NCBI GenBank assembly: GCA_014191195.1
Contig: BJGZ01000002.1
Span: forward strand, 1 to 64,000
From: Chlorobiota bacterium
GTDB lineage: Bacteria; Bacteroidota; Ignavibacteria; Kapaibacteriales; UBA961
Reading direction: 5' to 3'
DNA length: 64,000 nt
Numbering within the stretch: the first letter of the stretch is position 1; every line of letters starts with the position of its first letter. Positions 26,888 to 37,976 of this stretch are shown one piece after another. Position numbers and translations under genes: made by a program. Below the pieces are notes generated by a model. It did not search any database, was not told the DNA's origin, and worked only from the letters and a program-made list of their open reading frames with translations.

Positions 26888-27517
26888 ATGATACGATATC
26901 TATGTGCTATTATTCGCACTTTTAGCATAATAATGATGATTTTATTATCTGGTTGCTCCTCGCTTATAGATTTATTCCTGCCTCCGAATCCAGATGAATT
27001 CCAATGGAGAAGCTCATTTTGGTTACGATGTAATGGGGTAAAATTATCCTCATTGCAATCAGTTAATCTAACATCAGAAAACGGGTATATATTAGAACAT
27101 ACCTCGTCAGCAGGATTTATGGCCCAACGTATTACTGATTACAGAGTAATGATGAATATTAAGCTTTTGTCTGGTACAGGAATAAGAATTAGAACAAGAA
27201 CGACTATAGAAGAAGCAGCACAAAAACAAGGAATACTTCTTGACTATACAGATAAAGGTATAGAAATTAAAGACGGAGAACGATTGATTGCTAAAACAGA
27301 TACAATTATGGCAATTCCTGGAATGGAAGAATTAATTACTATTGATTCTGATGGAAAAATAATGAGAATTGGAATAGGATGCGCAAAACCATTTATATTT
27401 GTTACATCTCAATCTGGAACTGAACATATACTTACTGAATCAATCAATGATTCTAGAGTGAGCGTCTCTGGAATTGAGATAATTCCATTACGTTTAGCAA
27501 GGCCAAGCATCTATTAA
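26888..27517 (+). CDS. Small lipoprotein in polysaccharide export operon, unknown function
   Basis: The product is 209 residues with lipobox 'ILLSGCSS' (Cys near 23). The mature part looks all-beta ('GFMAQRITDYRVMMNIKLLS', 'GTGIRIRTRTTIEEA'), recalling a lectin/LamG-like sandwich, but this is weak. Its TAA shares one base with the ATG of the Wza-like gene (27517), which indicates translational coupling. It likely sits at the outer membrane as an accessory of polysaccharide export. No catalytic motif is visible. Confidence 0.6.
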   Translation: MIRYLCAIIRTFSIIMMILLSGCSSLIDLFLPPNPDEFQWRSSFWLRCNGVKLSSLQSVNLTSENGYILEHTSSAGFMAQRITDYRVMMNIKLLSGTGIRIRTRTTIEEAAQKQGILLDYTDKGIEIKDGERLIAKTDTIMAIPGMEELITIDSDGKIMRIGIGCAKPFIFVTSQSGTEHILTESINDSRVSVSGIEIIPLRLARPSIY

Positions 27518-29244
27518 TGAAAATTCACTATGCTAATATTATGAATTGTAAACGAATAATTGTTTTTTATACTATTGTGATGTGCTTTCACATACTGTTA
27601 GGTGCAGATCTATATTCGCAAATAACCGGAGCAATTAAACTCCCAAAACCTGGTGCAATGAAACCAGGAGAATATGATACCGTTGGAGTATTAAAAGCTG
27701 AAACTTTAGCAAAAGAAACATTGGGCATCGTAGAAACAGCAATAAATCCCGATACATATATTGTTGGGCCTAATGATATTATGACTGTATTTATTGCACC
27801 AATTGGCATTAAAGATGAATCCAATCATATTGAAGCTATAGTATCTCCAGATGGTCGGATTGTAATTCCAGCCATTGGTGCTGTACAAATCGGTGGATTA
27901 ACACTATCAAAAGCAGAAGAAATAGTGCGGGAAAAAGTATCCTCTCTACTTAAAACTCCTTCAGTTTCATTAGTTCTTCGTAAAATGAGAACATTTAAGG
28001 TTATCATTCGTGGTTCGGTAAAAAAACCAGGAATAATCTCTGCAACTCCCTCAGATAGAGTGTCTGAAATCATTGATAGATCCGGTGGATTATTATACTC
28101 TGCTTCAACAAGATCTATTAATATTATGAGATATGGAAAAGATGAAAAACCACAATCACTTCTTGATGTAGATTTGCAAAAATTTTATGCAATGGGTGAT
28201 AAAAGTTCAAATCCATTTTTAGAAGGTGGAGATATTATTTATGTACCCACTTTATCTCGCACTGAAGTATTTCAAGTGAATGGTGAGATTGGATCCGAGG
28301 GTGAATATGAGTATAAAAAAGGAGATAAACTTTCTACTGCAATTAGTACTGCACAAGGATTTTTACGTACAGCTAGAATTGATTCAATAGAAATAGCACG
28401 ATTTGATCAAAATGGCTTTTCTACTTCAACATTCTTCGTGGATTGCAGTGCTTGGCCATCTTTTACATCGTTACTACATCAAACAGAATATCCAAATGAC
28501 ATCCTATTAGAACCAGGCGATAGAATATATGTACGAGAAAAAATAAAATGGCGGAAAATGTATACTGTTTCTATAACAGGTGAAGTTCAAAAACCAGGTA
28601 AATATGCAATTAATCCAGACTCAAATACTATTCAAGATTTAATTGCCAGGGCTGGAGGATTAACAGAAGATGCATATAATGAAAATTCTTTATTGATGCG
28701 ACAAAAAGATGATAATCTAATATATGATATTGAATATTGGCGCTTATTATCGTTACCCGCAGCATCATTAACCGATAGAGAAAAAGCATTTTTAAGAGAA
28801 AAAAAACGTGAAAAAAGAGGTTTAATAGCAGTGGACTTCAATACATTAATGCGTGATGATCGAAAAATCTTTCTGTCATTAGAAGATCAAGACTCTGTGT
28901 ATATAGCCCCTAAAAAAGAATTTGTGAATGTATTCGGTAAAGTACAAAAACCAGGAAGAATAAAATTTAATTCTTCATATACTTATGAAGATTATATTCG
29001 TTCGGCAGGTGGCTTTTCTGCAAGAGCAGATGAAGATGAAACCCTTATATTAACGCAAAGAGGGGAACAACTATTAGCAGAAGCAGACGATTATAAACTC
29101 TTACCTGGGGATCAAATTATGGTGCCAGAAATTCCCGAAAACAAAGTAAACTTTAAAGATATTTTGTCTGTCGTATTAACTATTACAGCTCAAATAGTAA
29201 CTGTAGCTGCATTTATCTTTACTCTTTCAAGAAATACTCCATAA
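27517..29244 (+). CDS. Polysaccharide export outer-membrane protein (Wza-like, SLBB domains)
   Basis: After an N-terminal hydrophobic signal (about 12-34) comes a Poly_export domain ('YIVGPNDIMTVFIAPI' through 'KAEEIVREKVSSLLKTPSVS'). Several SLBB repeats follow: 'FKVIIRGSVKKPGIISATPS', 'FQVNGEIGSEGEYEYKKGD', 'YTVSITGEVQKPGKYAINPD', 'NVFGKVQKPGRIKFNSSYTY'. The last 25 residues form a hydrophobic helix (ILSVVLTITAQIVTVAAFIF), comparable to the C-terminal helix by which Wza spans the outer membrane. It would form the exit channel for capsule or exopolysaccharide. Unlike E. coli Wza it has no clear lipobox. The Wzz-like gene follows after 10 bases. Confidence 0.9.
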   Translation: MKIHYANIMNCKRIIVFYTIVMCFHILLGADLYSQITGAIKLPKPGAMKPGEYDTVGVLKAETLAKETLGIVETAINPDTYIVGPNDIMTVFIAPIGIKDESNHIEAIVSPDGRIVIPAIGAVQIGGLTLSKAEEIVREKVSSLLKTPSVSLVLRKMRTFKVIIRGSVKKPGIISATPSDRVSEIIDRSGGLLYSASTRSINIMRYGKDEKPQSLLDVDLQKFYAMGDKSSNPFLEGGDIIYVPTLSRTEVFQVNGEIGSEGEYEYKKGDKLSTAISTAQGFLRTARIDSIEIARFDQNGFSTSTFFVDCSAWPSFTSLLHQTEYPNDILLEPGDRIYVREKIKWRKMYTVSITGEVQKPGKYAINPDSNTIQDLIARAGGLTEDAYNENSLLMRQKDDNLIYDIEYWRLLSLPAASLTDREKAFLREKKREKRGLIAVDFNTLMRDDRKIFLSLEDQDSVYIAPKKEFVNVFGKVQKPGRIKFNSSYTYEDYIRSAGGFSARADEDETLILTQRGEQLLAEADDYKLLPGDQIMVPEIPENKVNFKDILSVVLTITAQIVTVAAFIFTLSRNTP

Positions 29245-29254
29245 CTTATACTTT

Positions 29255-30445
29255 ATGCAAGAACCCCAAGAAATATCATCATATAGAGAATCTTCAGTGT
29301 TTCTGATATACATAAAACACAATATCAAAAAAATATTGATAGTTTCTTTATGCTGTTCTATTATTGGGATTTTGATCTCATATATCCTACCACATACATA
29401 TTCCTCTACAGTAATGGTACTACCTGTTGAGCAAAAAAATGGTGGGTCTGGCATTGCATCGTTGCTATCGGGGAATTTACCATCTGGATTAGGTGGAATT
29501 ATGGGCGCAAACGAATCAAAAAATAGCTTTTTATCTCCCGAATTACTGTTGTCAAGAACATTATCTGAAATGATTGAAAAGCAAGGTAACCTTAAAAAAT
29601 ACGATCAATATCTTTCTATCCCTGATAAAGATAAAATTTCTGAGTTGAGAAAAAGTTTATCAATTGATACAAGAAGAAGCGGAATTGTATTATTAGAAGC
29701 AAATTGGAGTACAGGATTTTTCCCCAGCTATCAAGATAAAGAACAGTCTTCCTTATTAGCATCGATCATTGCTAATCAAGCAGCTTATGGAATTGATATT
29801 ATATCAAAAAATAAAAGTACCTCAACAGCAAAAAGAGCCAGAGTGTTTATTGATAAAATAATGGCAGAAAATAAAGCATCATTGGATTCACATTATCTTG
29901 CTCTTCAACAATTTCAAAAACAAAATAAAATTGTTGAATTAGAGGAACAAGGAAAGTTGATTATCGGAAATGCTGTGTTAATGGGAACAGAATTAGCAAA
30001 AGCACAAATTGAATTAGATATTGCAAAACAACAATTTCAGAGTGATGCGCCTGCAGTAACTCTTCTACAAAAAAAAGTATCTTCTTTACAAAAACAGTTT
30101 TCTTTAGTTCAATCCGGCGGAAATTCATCAGATCAATTCTCTATCAACTTGAAAAAAATACCTGAATTAGGAAAAAAATATGTGATTATGCTTCGAGATA
30201 TCAAGATTATGGAACAAATCAATGCATATCTTCAAACGCAAAGAACGCAAGAATATATTCAGGAAGTGAGAGATTTCCCAGAAATTCAAATTGTAGAAAA
30301 AGCTATTCCAGAAATCAAACATATTTTTCCTAAACGATCTATTATCGCAATTATATTTTTCTTTCTAGGAATTATTTTATCTGTCTTTTATGGTATTATA
30401 AAAGCTTCCAGACAATCTTCCTTTCCTTCCCTCCAAAAAAAGTAA
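29255..30445 (+). CDS. Chain-length determinant (Wzz/PCP family) inner-membrane protein
   Basis: The 396-residue protein has the PCP layout: a first membrane helix (about 24-45, 'KILIVSLCCSIIGILISYIL'), a long periplasmic part with coiled-coil helices (about 175-300), and a second helix near the C-terminus (about 366-388, 'SIIAIIFFFLGIILSVFYGI'). The Pro-rich signature just before the second helix is present in reduced form ('AIPEIKHIFPKR'). It sets chain length and links polymerisation to the Wza-like pore encoded just upstream. There is no cytoplasmic tyrosine-kinase domain. No polymerase or flippase gene is in the window. Confidence 0.87.
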   Translation: MQEPQEISSYRESSVFLIYIKHNIKKILIVSLCCSIIGILISYILPHTYSSTVMVLPVEQKNGGSGIASLLSGNLPSGLGGIMGANESKNSFLSPELLLSRTLSEMIEKQGNLKKYDQYLSIPDKDKISELRKSLSIDTRRSGIVLLEANWSTGFFPSYQDKEQSSLLASIIANQAAYGIDIISKNKSTSTAKRARVFIDKIMAENKASLDSHYLALQQFQKQNKIVELEEQGKLIIGNAVLMGTELAKAQIELDIAKQQFQSDAPAVTLLQKKVSSLQKQFSLVQSGGNSSDQFSINLKKIPELGKKYVIMLRDIKIMEQINAYLQTQRTQEYIQEVRDFPEIQIVEKAIPEIKHIFPKRSIIAIIFFFLGIILSVFYGIIKASRQSSFPSLQKK

Positions 30446-30480
30446 TTCATTTTCTAAAAAATACTGTATCTTTATTCCAC

Positions 30481-30596
30481 GTTAGAGGTGCTGATATCTT
30501 TTTGATATCAGAGAATAGGGAAAACCGTTAAAATCGGTTACGGTAGCGCCGCTGTGATATGGTTCATCCATTAAGTCAGAAGACCTGCCTCTTAAC
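30481..30596 (+). promoter_or_regulatory. Cobalamin (B12) riboswitch
   Basis: The conserved B12-element blocks are present in order: 'gaggtgctgatatc', 'gagaatagggaaaaccg', 'aaaatcggttacggtagcg', 'ccgctgtgat' and 'aagtcagaagacctgcc'. The closing stem pairs gttagagg (30481-30488) with cctcttaac (30588-30596, one bulge). A perfect inner hairpin ctgatatc/gatatcag lies near 30491-30511. A -7-like TATCTTTA is at 30467-30474. Binding of cobalamin normally turns off the downstream gene, here the beta-propeller protein and possibly the CobC-like phosphatase. Confidence 0.93.
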
Positions 30597-30599
30597 AAA

Positions 30600-30646
30600 T
30601 TCATCAATGTCATGTGGCAACATCTGCGCTTTACCGATGTGATGAA
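30600..30646 (+). promoter_or_regulatory. Candidate expression-platform hairpin of the B12 riboswitch
   Basis: ttcatca (30600-30606) pairs perfectly with tgatgaa (30640-30646). Inside it catc (30621-30624) pairs with gatg (30636-30639), leaving the loop tgcgctttacc. The position right after the aptamer fits a regulatory hairpin like P13 of other B12 riboswitches. Two ATGs (30607 and 30612) sit in its bulge. Confidence 0.45.
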
Positions 30647-30779
30647 GCATCAGTTTACTCTATTATGTAAGAATACATTTGATTATTCTTGCATAGTTGT
30701 TGTATATCCTTCTATGCTTCTCCTATCTAAATCAGCATATTCCAATGACAATATTTACATATTTTATTGGACAAATCCT

Positions 30780-32135
30780 GTGAAAATTCTTAGTACATTC
30801 TTCTTTTGTTTCTGCACATCATTATCAATACTTCATTCTCAAAGTCAATCTAGTATCGGTGTTGGGCATCAGCCATTATCTTTATTTCAGAACGCCGATA
30901 CCGTTCATGTATTTTGTAATGGAATTGATAAAAATTTTGATGGAATATGCCAGCTAGATTCTGGTGATATACCTGCAACGTGGTGGCAAATTGATGCTTA
31001 TACAAAAGCATTAAAAGGTATTTCAGTTATGGAAAGGGGATATTTTGAATTTCCATTTAGAAATGCAATAACCAAACAATATATGTATTGTTCAAGGGCC
31101 AATAAAATCGAACAATATGATCTATCAACCAGACAATTAATTGATTCGTCAATTGTGCAATTAGATAATCCATCTCAAAAAATTACAGCTATAACAGCTA
31201 TTCAAAGTAGTGGTAAAGAAATAGCATTAATGTATTCATCCAAAAAGGATTATGTATCTTCAGGTGAATTTACATTATTTAGCTTGGCCAATAAGACAGT
31301 TCTTTTTTCTACATATATTGGAATAAACCCACAACACATATTAGCCTTTCCAGAATCACAAACATTAATGTGTGCAATTTTATGTGAAGGTACTTTTGGC
31401 TCTAATGATTCAAAAATATTTTTTGTCTTAAAGCCCAATAGTAATAATCCTAATATTTCAATTGATTCTATTGATATAGGTGATACTGGAAATTATCTGG
31501 CCGAATTCAATGGGATTTTATTAGCAGTGATGAATGGATCTCATGAAATTACTGCAGTTAATCTAGAAGATAGGTCGTTGATTGGCAAATTTCCAGTAGG
31601 TACAAGTGGATATAATGGTCCTAGAGAAGCGGTTATAGACCCATCTGGAATTGTATTTGTAAGTACATATAATTCAGATATAAGAAAAGGTTTACTTTCT
31701 AATGGAACTTTAGAGAACATTTTAGACCCTAAGGGTAAACCAGAAGGCATTGCATTAATTAATGGTGCTTTGTGGGTTGCAAATGCATATAAATCAGGTT
31801 CTTATGATTATGATTCAACAATTACAATTATGGAGCAAACTGTTGGAATATTCAATAATGACAATGATATATCACATATTTCTATAGATGAAAATCAAAA
31901 TAGTGTACAGTTTTCAGTTGAAACAAATCAATCAGAATCGTTATTGAGATGCAGAATTATAGATCTACAAGGTGCAACTATTGTGGAGAATTCTTTTGAA
32001 GGAGAATATGTATCTTCAGACAAAACACTTTTCACAGTTAGAATATTTTTAAAAAATATCATGAGTGGTATATATATTGCTGAATATACTATAGGAAATG
32101 CAAGGAAAACAATGCTCTTTATTCATCGTAAATAA
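30780..32135 (+). CDS. B12-riboswitch-controlled YncE-like beta-propeller protein with T9SS C-terminal tail
   Basis: The frame is open from an ATG at 30612, but that ATG lies in the riboswitch platform and would put about 56 residues before the signal peptide. The GTG at 30780 gives a clean one (VKILSTFFFCFCTSLSIL). Then comes an EF-hand-like segment (GIDKNFDGICQLDSGDIPAT), a YncE-type propeller with repeats such as 'NYLAEFNGILLAVMNGSHEI' and 'PREAVIDPSGIVFVS', and 'KPEGIALINGALWVANA'. The last 85 residues are a T9SS sorting domain ('RCRIIDLQGATIVENSF', ending 'GIYIAEYTIGNARKTMLF'). Control by B12 suggests a role in cobalamin capture, like the propeller BtuG of Bacteroides, which is instead a lipoprotein paired with BtuB. 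That comparison is inference. No TonB receptor gene is nearby. Confidence 0.82.
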   Translation: MKILSTFFFCFCTSLSILHSQSQSSIGVGHQPLSLFQNADTVHVFCNGIDKNFDGICQLDSGDIPATWWQIDAYTKALKGISVMERGYFEFPFRNAITKQYMYCSRANKIEQYDLSTRQLIDSSIVQLDNPSQKITAITAIQSSGKEIALMYSSKKDYVSSGEFTLFSLANKTVLFSTYIGINPQHILAFPESQTLMCAILCEGTFGSNDSKIFFVLKPNSNNPNISIDSIDIGDTGNYLAEFNGILLAVMNGSHEITAVNLEDRSLIGKFPVGTSGYNGPREAVIDPSGIVFVSTYNSDIRKGLLSNGTLENILDPKGKPEGIALINGALWVANAYKSGSYDYDSTITIMEQTVGIFNNDNDISHISIDENQNSVQFSVETNQSESLLRCRIIDLQGATIVENSFEGEYVSSDKTLFTVRIFLKNIMSGIYIAEYTIGNARKTMLFIHRK

Positions 32136-32200
32136 AAATTGTTTCACATGTAATATGCTAATTTAATAGTTATAAAAAAGTGCCTTGCCAGTAAATATGG

Positions 32201-32208
32201 TATTTTTG
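32201..32208 (+). promoter_or_regulatory. Candidate -7 element of a promoter for the CobC-like gene
   Basis: TATTTTTG, followed by tact as at the ligA promoter, matches TAnnTTTG and lies 25 bases before the ATG. The -33 TTG is not at the right distance (nearest one 13 bases away), so the site is weaker than the ligA promoter. If used, the phosphatase would also be expressed independently of the riboswitch. Confidence 0.45.
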
Positions 32209-32233
32209 TACTGAAACTTACAAATGAAGGCTT

Positions 32234-32800
32234 ATGGACTTATATTTTTTACGTCATACAACATTATCTGTAGATAATGGGATGTGTTTTGGACAATCTG
32301 AAATCACTGTATCTTCTAGTTTTTTACAAGAAGCAGCCGATACTATGAAATTAGTTCCAGATAAGCATAATGCTGTCTATTTTGCTAGCCCAACTAGACG
32401 TTGTATTCAATTAGCAGAATTTATCAGTAAAAGACCAGCTATGCAAGATCTTCGATTAGCAGATTTACATTTTGGGGATTGGGAAAAGCAATACTGGGCT
32501 GATATACAACCAGATCAACTAGATGATTGGATGCAAGATATTGTTATAAATAAAGTACCTGGTGGAGAATCGTATGGAGATGTACTATTAAGGGTACAAT
32601 CATTTATAGAAGATATTAGTAAAAAAAATCATAAAACTGTTGTGATATCAACTCATGCAAGTGTGATTAGGGCAGTGTTATCATATGTATTGGAAATCCC
32701 ATTTCACAGAACATTTGACATACATATTGCATTTGGAAGCATCACAAAAATTAGTGTAGACAAAGATTCATTTATTGTAGAATATATAAATAGGGTATAA
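32234..32800 (+). CDS. cobC: Histidine phosphatase, CobC-like (alpha-ribazole-5'-phosphate phosphatase)
   Basis: The 188-residue protein is a phosphoglycerate-mutase-fold phosphatase. The phospho-acceptor His is in 'YFLRHTTL' (His8), with the supporting Arg in 'ASPTRRCIQLAEFI', the acidic 'LADLHFGDWEKQYWADI', and the second His in 'VVISTHASVIRAV' (about 141). 'GMCFGQSE', 'FGDWE' and 'VPGGESYGDVLLRV' are typical of CobC, which removes phosphate from alpha-ribazole 5'-phosphate or adenosylcobalamin 5'-phosphate late in B12 assembly. Location 98 bases after a B12-controlled gene supports that reading. A general sugar-phosphate phosphatase remains possible, since no cobS/cobT/cobU is in the window. 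Confidence 0.78.
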   Translation: MDLYFLRHTTLSVDNGMCFGQSEITVSSSFLQEAADTMKLVPDKHNAVYFASPTRRCIQLAEFISKRPAMQDLRLADLHFGDWEKQYWADIQPDQLDDWMQDIVINKVPGGESYGDVLLRVQSFIEDISKKNHKTVVISTHASVIRAVLSYVLEIPFHRTFDIHIAFGSITKISVDKDSFIVEYINRV

Positions 32801-35807: not shown

Positions 35808-37976
35808 TTATTGTTTATAATGTTGCCAGTTTAGTAATATGGGCTTTGCCATACCTTGAATACTAATAAAATAAGATCCTTCTTGTAAATCAGGTAATAG
35901 TAAATCCTTTTGTTCATTACTTAATATTGATTCTGATATAGATGCAATATTTCTACCTTGAATAGTATAAATATGAATGTTTACATCGCGTGATTCTGTA
36001 CTGAACACTTTAATTCTAGACTCAATTGCATTGCTGTAGACAATTGCATGACAATTAGTTGGAATATAATCTGATTCTGCAGACAGGAAAACGCCAGAGA
36101 CTGTGTCTTTTTCAGCTAAAATATCATGTTGTTCATCTATTACTGCTTTAGTAACTCTAAAAGGTAGTTTAACATAACCTTCATATACTCTGTCTGTCAT
36201 GATGATATCTTGAGTTGATTTTTTACCATTTTCACCATAAAAAGTAATCGTAAAAGGAAGATGAAACACATTCGGAATATTTATAGCACTTTGTTTCTGT
36301 TGAATGATATATTGAGTAATTGTATCACCATTATTTTCTTTAAATTCTCTTAAGGAAGCAAATTGTAAAATGGGATGTCCGGGTTTCATTACCCATTGAT
36401 CAAAGAAAATATCATAGGGGATTTTTGGATTAGGAGCATATTTCTTAAATGTAGATTTGAAATCATCTGTAATAGCATTTCCATAAGCATAATCATTCAT
36501 ATACTTATGTAAAGTTGAATAATATAAACTATCACCAAGCATTGTTCTCAGCATATGATATATCCAACTGGATTTAGCATATGTTGTAGCATAATTAAAT
36601 ATAATATCAATAGAAATACCATAAATAGGAGGTTGTTGATTCTTATTATTGATATTTAAATAATCTCTTCTTTTTGCAAGCATTCTATTCATATACTCTG
36701 TTTTACCACCCCAAGACTCACCCCATAGGGCTTCTCCCCACGTTGCACCACCTTCATTTAGCCAAATATCTCCCCATGTACCACAAGTAACTAAATCACC
36801 AGTCCATTGATGCATCAATTCATGAGCAATTCCATAGCCAGATTTTCCTGCAAGCCATGTTCTATTTATTGTTGTTTGCGTTTGATGTTCCATTCCACCA
36901 AAAGAAAATGGTTGAACGGAGGTATGTCCGTAACGTTTAAAAGGATAAGGTACAAGTTTATCTGTGAATGCCTTCATCATGCCAACTGTCATGCCTAATG
37001 AATATGTTGCATTATACTCAGATCCATCTGTTTTCGTACCATCATAATCTTTTTGCCAAACATAATTTATTATTTCTATGCTGTCTTTTTTATTGTCAGA
37101 AACATACCAATCAGAGTACACTTTAAAGATAGAAGCATTTGCAACCATAAGATATGTAGGTATTAATGTTGTATCGCGAAAGTAAAAGTCTCTATACTGT
37201 ATATCTGAAGATAGTGGTCCTTCTTTTATTGATATAAGATTACCATTTGCAGCTACGGAAATATTATTTTCTCCATCATTGGGTTTAAATGGAACTCTAA
37301 CTGTTATAGATGATCTGGCTTTATCATTTGGAATATCATTACAAGGCATCCAAATCCTAGCATCTTCGGGTTCACTCATTGTATAAACTAGTTTTTCTTC
37401 AACGTAATTTGGCCCAGTCCCTGGATATTGATCTACATACATTCCTTTTGGAAACACAAATAGTCCATCTCTTCCATTGCCTTTATAGGTGTACCAGATT
37501 GTCATAATATTGGTGTCTTTTGTTTTAAGTGTATTACCAGGAATACATTTCCACTCACCGTTATATGGTTGTGTAAATGAATTATATGAAAGTAGAACTC
37601 CATTATGCGAAATCGAGTCAATAGTCATTAAAGCCCCATTTAATACAATCTCTTTTGCTAAGCTGTCGATAAGCGTATAAGCAATGGTATTATGTCCACT
37701 AAATGTATATTCACTTAAAACAGAATCTGGGGTAAGAAATGGTTTTTGCCAATCCATAAATACATCATAAGAGAGAATATCATAAGGCCTTAATATTTGG
37801 GCTTGAACTCCTAACTTGTGTTCTTTTTTGTATACGGAATTACTATGGGCACAAAGTGCATAACCCAATTGCTTAGATTCTTCGAAAGCGGGGGATACTA
37901 TGAATGGAATTTGATATTCTTGAGCATGAACAGTAACAGAATAACATGAAAGAATAAGTAAAAGATAATACATCAT
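35808..37976 (-). CDS. M1-family aminopeptidase with T9SS C-terminal tail
   Basis: A signal peptide (about 1-18) precedes an M1 N-terminal beta domain and the catalytic domain. The exopeptidase motif is 'SFGGMEHQT' (usual form GxMEN). The zinc site is His385, His389 and Glu408 in HELMHQW...WLNEGG with catalytic Glu386. The C-terminal 75 residues are a T9SS sorting domain ('RDVNIHIYTIQGRNIASIS', ending 'LQEGSYFISIQG'). The enzyme would trim N-terminal amino acids from peptides at the cell surface or outside. At 722 residues it is shorter than the large M1 enzymes because the C-terminal helical domain is short or missing. It lies 13 bases after rlpA. Confidence 0.92.
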   Translation of the reverse strand: MMYYLLLILSCYSVTVHAQEYQIPFIVSPAFEESKQLGYALCAHSNSVYKKEHKLGVQAQILRPYDILSYDVFMDWQKPFLTPDSVLSEYTFSGHNTIAYTLIDSLAKEIVLNGALMTIDSISHNGVLLSYNSFTQPYNGEWKCIPGNTLKTKDTNIMTIWYTYKGNGRDGLFVFPKGMYVDQYPGTGPNYVEEKLVYTMSEPEDARIWMPCNDIPNDKARSSITVRVPFKPNDGENNISVAANGNLISIKEGPLSSDIQYRDFYFRDTTLIPTYLMVANASIFKVYSDWYVSDNKKDSIEIINYVWQKDYDGTKTDGSEYNATYSLGMTVGMMKAFTDKLVPYPFKRYGHTSVQPFSFGGMEHQTQTTINRTWLAGKSGYGIAHELMHQWTGDLVTCGTWGDIWLNEGGATWGEALWGESWGGKTEYMNRMLAKRRDYLNINNKNQQPPIYGISIDIIFNYATTYAKSSWIYHMLRTMLGDSLYYSTLHKYMNDYAYGNAITDDFKSTFKKYAPNPKIPYDIFFDQWVMKPGHPILQFASLREFKENNGDTITQYIIQQKQSAINIPNVFHLPFTITFYGENGKKSTQDIIMTDRVYEGYVKLPFRVTKAVIDEQHDILAEKDTVSGVFLSAESDYIPTNCHAIVYSNAIESRIKVFSTESRDVNIHIYTIQGRNIASISESILSNEQKDLLLPDLQEGSYFISIQGMAKPILLNWQHYKQ

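Follow-up and report, generated by a model that had tools for sequence, protein, structure and literature searches.

The closest described counterparts of the locus studied here are the BtuG proteins, which were reported by Wexler et al. as lipidated and exclusive to Bacteroidetes (PMC6143338). The N-terminal lipid anchor and linker of BtuG form the hinge of the lid over BtuB (PMC6143338, PMC10404256), and in BtuG2 every hydrogen bond to cobalamin comes from blades 1-4 of the propeller, with the loop Asn54-Thr64 shutting on the ligand like pliers (PMC10404256). The pairing of a propeller lipoprotein with a TonB receptor may also serve other ligands, which in the case of XusB are siderophores (PMC13142918). 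No description of a BtuG protein that uses the type IX secretion system (T9SS), or of a permuted B12 propeller, was found in a search of open-access literature.

Here we analyzed a stretch of 64,000 nucleotides from a Chlorobiota bacterium (contig BJGZ01000002.1 of assembly GCA_014191195.1), hereafter the window, whose genome comprises 2.41 Mb in 29 contigs with a completeness rating of 100%. The initial annotation of the window had proposed a secreted cobalamin-capture system, in which a cobalamin riboswitch controls a T9SS-tailed beta-propeller that is followed by a CobC-like phosphatase. A riboswitch-linked, T9SS-routed, BtuG-like propeller is retained from this proposal, but the link with cobC is weak. 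We consider it likely that the locus encodes a B12-repressed, T9SS-routed surface cobalamin-capture protein, a permuted relative of BtuG, that passes corrinoids to BtuB.

The riboswitch and its leader

Infernal placed a cobalamin riboswitch aptamer (RF00174) at 30469-30606 (+) with a score of 68.6 bits (E 8.2e-15) against a gathering threshold of 31.5 bits, and model positions 1-189 were fully covered. The aptamer, which contains the B12 box AGTCAGAAGACCTGCC, is a compact form without the P8-P12 arm and stands directly 5' of the propeller gene, so the well-formed riboswitch of the initial annotation is confirmed; the only other Rfam match in the whole window was one tRNA. The 173 nt from the aptamer to the GTG start of the propeller gene (30607-30779, +) are probably leader and presumably act as the expression platform, and a simple scan of this leader found no intrinsic terminator-like site. 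Immediately 5' of the riboswitch lie Poly_export/SLBB polysaccharide export and Wzz-type genes (27517-30445, +), in an order that is kept within the genus.

Two cobalamin riboswitches were found in the window's genome, the second of which scores 37.3 bits (C13:2978-3100). Aptamers of all genus relatives measure 123-138 nt, versus mostly ~185-270 nt in the other genera of the order. Both riboswitch kinds of the genus are devoid of the P8-P12 arm (30469-30606 of the window; L033:2978-3100; L092-L095; L122-L124), an absence that may have moved ligand preference toward methyl- or aquocobalamin, and the second kind has a diverged B12 box, AGCCAGATACTTC.

The propeller protein and its C-terminal tail

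The listed open reading frame of the propeller gene opens at 30612, but homologue alignment and the presence of a signal peptide favour GTG 30780. From this start the gene (30780-32135, +) encodes 451 residues, beginning with a predicted Sec signal peptide (30780-30842, +), MKILSTFFFCFCTSLSILHSQ followed by S, whose cleavage would fall before or after Q21 judging from the sequence and the alignment of homologues. The N-terminus, MKILSTFFFCFCTSLSILHSQSQ, is of the signal peptidase I type, with no lipobox cysteine at the cleavage site. Pfam and NCBIfam models gave the propeller no name. In an AF2 model of the protein (pLDDT 83.3, pTM 0.79), residues 22-353 superpose on seven-bladed propellers, including E. 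coli YncE (Z 30.0, rmsd 2.7, 291 aligned), which agrees with the earlier description of a signal-peptide protein with a YncE-like propeller, and a separate all-beta domain lies C-terminal to the propeller.

Residues 363-451 (31866-32132, +) are assigned to this C-terminal region as a predicted Ig-like T9SS sorting domain. Taken alone, the tail of the window protein scores below the cut-offs of both relevant models (Pfam, 15.8 of 27 bits; TIGR04183, 15.6 of 23 bits), but members of its family exceed them (L039, TIGR04183 6.9e-12; L068, Pfam 8.8e-9), and the family profile matches solved T9SS C-terminal domains (CTDs; 8glk, 1.6e-5; 8glj, 5e-4). Modelled alone, the tail adopts an Ig-like sandwich resembling the mirolase CTD (8qb1; Z 9.5, rmsd 2.4, 77 aligned) and the RemA CTD (8gl6; Z 8.7, rmsd 2.3, 74 aligned), although unrelated Ig folds reach similar Z values against this model. 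The tail is also homologous to that of c3, a surface protein found with the propeller in relatives (HH E 7.7e-8; see below), and the window's genome encodes SprA/Sov (SprA_N 2.1e-43). Relatives, CTD structures, the tail model and SprA all argue for the type IX sorting tail that had been annotated, even though its own score stays under the curated cut-offs. Elsewhere in the window, an M1-family aminopeptidase (35808-37976, -; 5.6e-34) has a T9SS tail near threshold (23.8 of 27 bits).

Relationship to BtuG

Searching the PDB with a 33-member profile of the propeller family gave BtuG1 as the top match (8blw_B, 6.5e-23), followed by BtuG2 (8bmy, 1.1e-13) and BtuG3 (3.9e-12), the identities of the BtuG entries being taken from PMC10404256; an archaeal YVTN propeller (1l0q, 1.8e-13) scored about equal to BtuG2. 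A single-sequence PDB search with the window protein returned nothing meaningful and no BtuG, and Foldseek and VIA-align comparisons of the AF2 model returned generic propellers, BtuG being absent among the matches listed. As a permuted symmetric fold is expected to behave in this way in such comparisons, the latter result says nothing about kinship with BtuG.

The two profile matches to BtuG1 occurred in reversed order, with a strong match between profile positions 189-346 and BtuG1 47-214 and a weak match between 25-190 and 218-379. When the alignment of BtuG-type lipoproteins was duplicated in tandem and compared with the propeller using hhalign, this yielded a single continuous alignment of 311 columns with a score of 248, versus 178 for the best unpermuted alignment. 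At the junction, the window sequence 'YIGINPQ...' falls on the BtuG C-terminal 'GLNP' and is followed directly by 'ILCEGTFG', corresponding to the BtuG N-terminal motif. On the strength of these sequence comparisons, the window propeller is a circularly permuted BtuG relative, in which residues 21-196 (30840-31367, +; tandem alignment and the weak colinear BtuG1 match) correspond to the second half of BtuG and residues 197-355 (31368-31844, +; hmmsearch of family profile A1 against the PDB) to its first half, with the proviso that propeller repeats can imitate a permutation signal. The comparison with BtuG made in the initial annotation thus holds as homology, but the permuted halves mean that the protein is no simple counterpart.

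Residues 21-196 are poorly conserved relative to BtuG. Residues 197-355 are the best conserved part of the protein, with the motifs EG.FG, GDTGN, NGSH (NNSH in BtuG2), GPRE and KPEG, and this most conserved part of the permuted family is the counterpart of the half of BtuG2 formed by blades 1-4, plier loop included. The loop itself, NEGNFQYSNAT in BtuG2 (with residue numbers deduced from an offset of 31 residues between chains), aligns with CEGTFGSNDSK at residues 202-212 of the window protein (31383-31415, +), in which E203 and G204 show little or no variation and F206 and G207 reach at least 90% conservation.

Distribution and genomic context

The comparative set comprised 61 genomes of the order (Kapabacteria), namely the window's own and those of 60 relatives. 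A propeller homologue was present in 49 and a cobalamin riboswitch in 54, and in 45 genomes (45/49 with the propeller, 45/54 with the riboswitch) the two occur together on one strand, the riboswitch directly 5' of the homologue and 56-730 bp away. A search with a 9-row alignment revealed the riboswitch likewise 5' of the homologue in 'Candidatus Kapaibacterium' and 'Ignavibacteria' MAGs of another collection. The riboswitch-propeller order therefore recurs across the order, a positive outcome for the comparative check proposed in the initial annotation, and the permuted propeller is the gene most often retained immediately 3' of the riboswitch, even where btuB has moved away. Among 296 genomes of the phylum, the full-length permuted form was found in this order and in one class relative only, the latter as a 904-aa double form; elsewhere there were half-profile matches only, to proteins that mostly measure 340-480 aa and include many BtuG-type lipoproteins, and those that were checked have a lipobox. 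The full-length permuted, T9SS-tailed form thus appears from these searches to be almost confined to the Kapabacteria order. In L047, L048, L058, L060 and L068, proteins of 750-800 aa combine two propellers in tandem with a single T9SS tail, and possibly provide two B12 sites or represent a remnant of the duplication behind the permutation.

Outside the genus, a frequent gene order is riboswitch, permuted propeller and a TonB receptor (c1), to which several families add c3 and a lipoprotein propeller. The best NCBIfam model for the c1 receptor is TonB-B12 (TIGR01779, 5.7e-41, below the equivalog cut-off). The lipoprotein propeller is related to BtuG in colinear order (profile against BtuG1, 3e-50), and a profile of c3 finds the BtuH domain within BtuG1 (8blw_B 431-497, 3.4e-5), BtuH2 weakly (7biz, 0.066) and T9SS tails. 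Two KSB1-type MAGs (L105:625-7368 and L106:299-7275) share one gene arrangement, running from the BtuH-like c3 through BtuB and a BtuG-type lipoprotein to a permuted double propeller of ~800 aa; a 101-bit riboswitch lies ahead of the operon in L105, and none was reported for L106, where the available stretch begins just before c3. With riboswitches, BtuB, BtuG-type and BtuH-like genes adjoining them in relatives, the homologues are indeed tied to B12 elements.

In the window's genome, the BtuB orthologue (C3:189229-191139; 478 bits to the c1 profile) sits between adk and rimP with no riboswitch, and the BtuG-type lipoprotein (C2:137466-138590) is encoded downstream of respiratory-complex genes. 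The second riboswitch operon (L033; C13:1368-2891, -) encodes a 190-aa DUF6580 membrane protein (DUF6580 3.7e-49) and a 315-aa BtuH-like c3 surface protein with a T9SS tail. The ancestral B12 operon is scattered in this genus, and it is a derived state that the propeller here has no receptor beside it. While it is true that no TonB receptor adjoins the locus, this is therefore no evidence for a receptor-free system. A truncated TonB receptor gene at the end of contig C2 (G000:C2:238493-240316, -) was rejected as BtuB, as PqqU and siderophore models match it better.

The downstream phosphatase and the host requirement for B12

The gene 3' of the propeller encodes a histidine phosphatase of 188 aa (32234-32800, +; His_Phos_1 1.1e-28), for which the best NCBIfam model is CobC (TIGR03162) at 145 bits, below the cut-off of 162.9. 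It is separated from the propeller gene by 98 bp and lies close to rodA. Only within the genus does the phosphatase come after the propeller, in all five relatives with the region covered, and outside the genus the propeller keeps its riboswitch without it. A family search of the window's genome found no match to CobS (controls were positive in 10/14 genomes), in which case the presumed CobC substrate would not be made. The phosphatase is probably unrelated to B12 function, and with its score below the cut-off, CobS absent and its linkage limited to the genus, we set aside both its role as B12 partner and cobC as the defining gene of the operon.

Gene absences in the window's genome were judged from family searches. 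A MetH activation domain is encoded (4e-126), and only two TP_methylases were found, which is too few, so that corrin synthesis is apparently missing; on this gene content the host is probably a B12 scavenger or auxotroph with MetH. Family searches found no BtuC-type importer in this genome, FecCD giving a weak match only, and no match to CbiQ/EcfT, leaving a role of DUF6580 as an ECF S-component paired with EcfT unsupported. As neither a BtuC-type nor an EcfT protein was found, we propose the riboswitch-controlled DUF6580 protein as a candidate inner-membrane B12 importer; no paper naming DUF6580 was found in the open-access literature searched.

Discussion

Taken together, these analyses suggest the following mechanism. 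In keeping with riboswitch biology, low cellular cobalamin would allow the riboswitch to permit mRNA expression, and the protein would be exported across the inner membrane via Sec; T9SS, with the Ig-like C-terminal domain as its signal, would then carry it over the outer membrane to the cell surface, as the tail and SprA imply. There the permuted propeller may bind corrinoids through the half that, by computed homology, grips cobalamin in BtuG, and the BtuB orthologue, whose gene lies elsewhere, would receive them from it either directly or via a BtuG-type lipoprotein. An ancestral operon of riboswitch, permuted propeller, btuB, BtuH-like gene and BtuG lipoprotein would have dispersed in the genus, leaving the propeller alone behind its own riboswitch.

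Instead of binding B12 itself, the propeller could belong to the B12 system as a surface part, such as a partner or structural cap for BtuB and its complex, and binding would be left to the BtuG lipoprotein and the BtuH-like protein. The same genomes encode a colinear lipoprotein of the BtuG type and frequently a BtuH-like protein too, which could make binding by the propeller redundant, and its first half is poorly conserved relative to BtuG. We nevertheless judge a non-binding role improbable, as conservation is strongest in the half that supplies all of the BtuG hydrogen bonds to cobalamin, plier loop included, and the propeller is the gene that most often stays immediately behind the riboswitch, even with btuB moved. 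A different ligand, for example heme, a siderophore or another metal chelate, or some other surface role, would make the riboswitch a coincidence or part of a B12-dependent metabolic response; related propeller-TonB systems do bind siderophores and the fold alone does not tell the function of a propeller, but the riboswitch linkage in 45 genomes and in KSB1-type operons, along with neighbours that best match the B12 receptor model and the BtuG and BtuH structures, renders this very improbable.

Least credible of all is that the riboswitch chiefly serves the CobC-like phosphatase and nucleotide-loop assembly, with the propeller merely carried along in a biosynthesis or remodelling operon. The position of the phosphatase in the five covered genus relatives and CobC as its best model speak for this, yet the score is under the cut-off, CobS is missing from a genome rated complete, the riboswitch-propeller pair exists without the phosphatase outside the genus, and a 98 bp gap separates the two genes, with rodA close by.

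Returning to the preferred reading, surface cobalamin capture by the propeller, the permutation shifts both termini to another blade, so that the BtuG lid hinge cannot be reproduced unchanged and a separate capture role becomes plausible. We can offer only tentatively, and with some doubt, the more specific proposal that the permuted propeller arose from BtuG by circular permutation and acts not as a BtuB lid but as a separate T9SS-secreted cobalamin binder, possibly released or surface-spread (a 'cobalophore'), that hands B12 to the complex of BtuG lipoprotein and BtuB, the BtuH-like protein having been re-routed via T9SS in parallel.

Riboswitch-controlled surface B12 capture would now reach free-living Kapabacteria and KSB1-type lineages. 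The permuted relative offers a natural means of telling the parts of BtuG required for binding from those required for handover, and the T9SS tails suggest that one anchoring route can replace another in two different B12 binders, one BtuG-like and one BtuH-like.

Among known systems, the CobC alpha-ribazole phosphatase (TIGR03162) belongs to the same superfamily as the protein at 32234-32800, but this protein scores below the cut-off, has no accompanying CobS and is linked to the propeller in the genus only. YncE/YVTN-type propellers have the seven-bladed fold in common with the window protein but no tie to cobalamin riboswitches, and XusB, likewise a propeller with a TonB receptor partner, binds siderophores (PMC13142918) and has no such tie either. 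BtuH (BtuH2 and the H domain of BtuG1), an accessory surface B12 binder of riboswitch loci whose core is matched by c3, differs from the permuted propeller in fold and is a different protein, its counterpart here being the BtuH-like core of the second riboswitch operon, which bears a T9SS tail. Like BtuG1, BtuG2 and BtuG3 of Bacteroides thetaiotaomicron, the window protein is a seven-bladed propeller with cobalamin riboswitch control or linkage and, in relatives, linkage to btuB (PMC6143338, PMC10404256), and its sequence is homologous to their B12-gripping half. Unlike BtuG, it has neither lipobox nor lipid anchor but a C-terminal T9SS domain, its gene does not adjoin btuB in the window's genus, and its halves are permuted, with some members of its family forming double propellers of about 750-900 aa.
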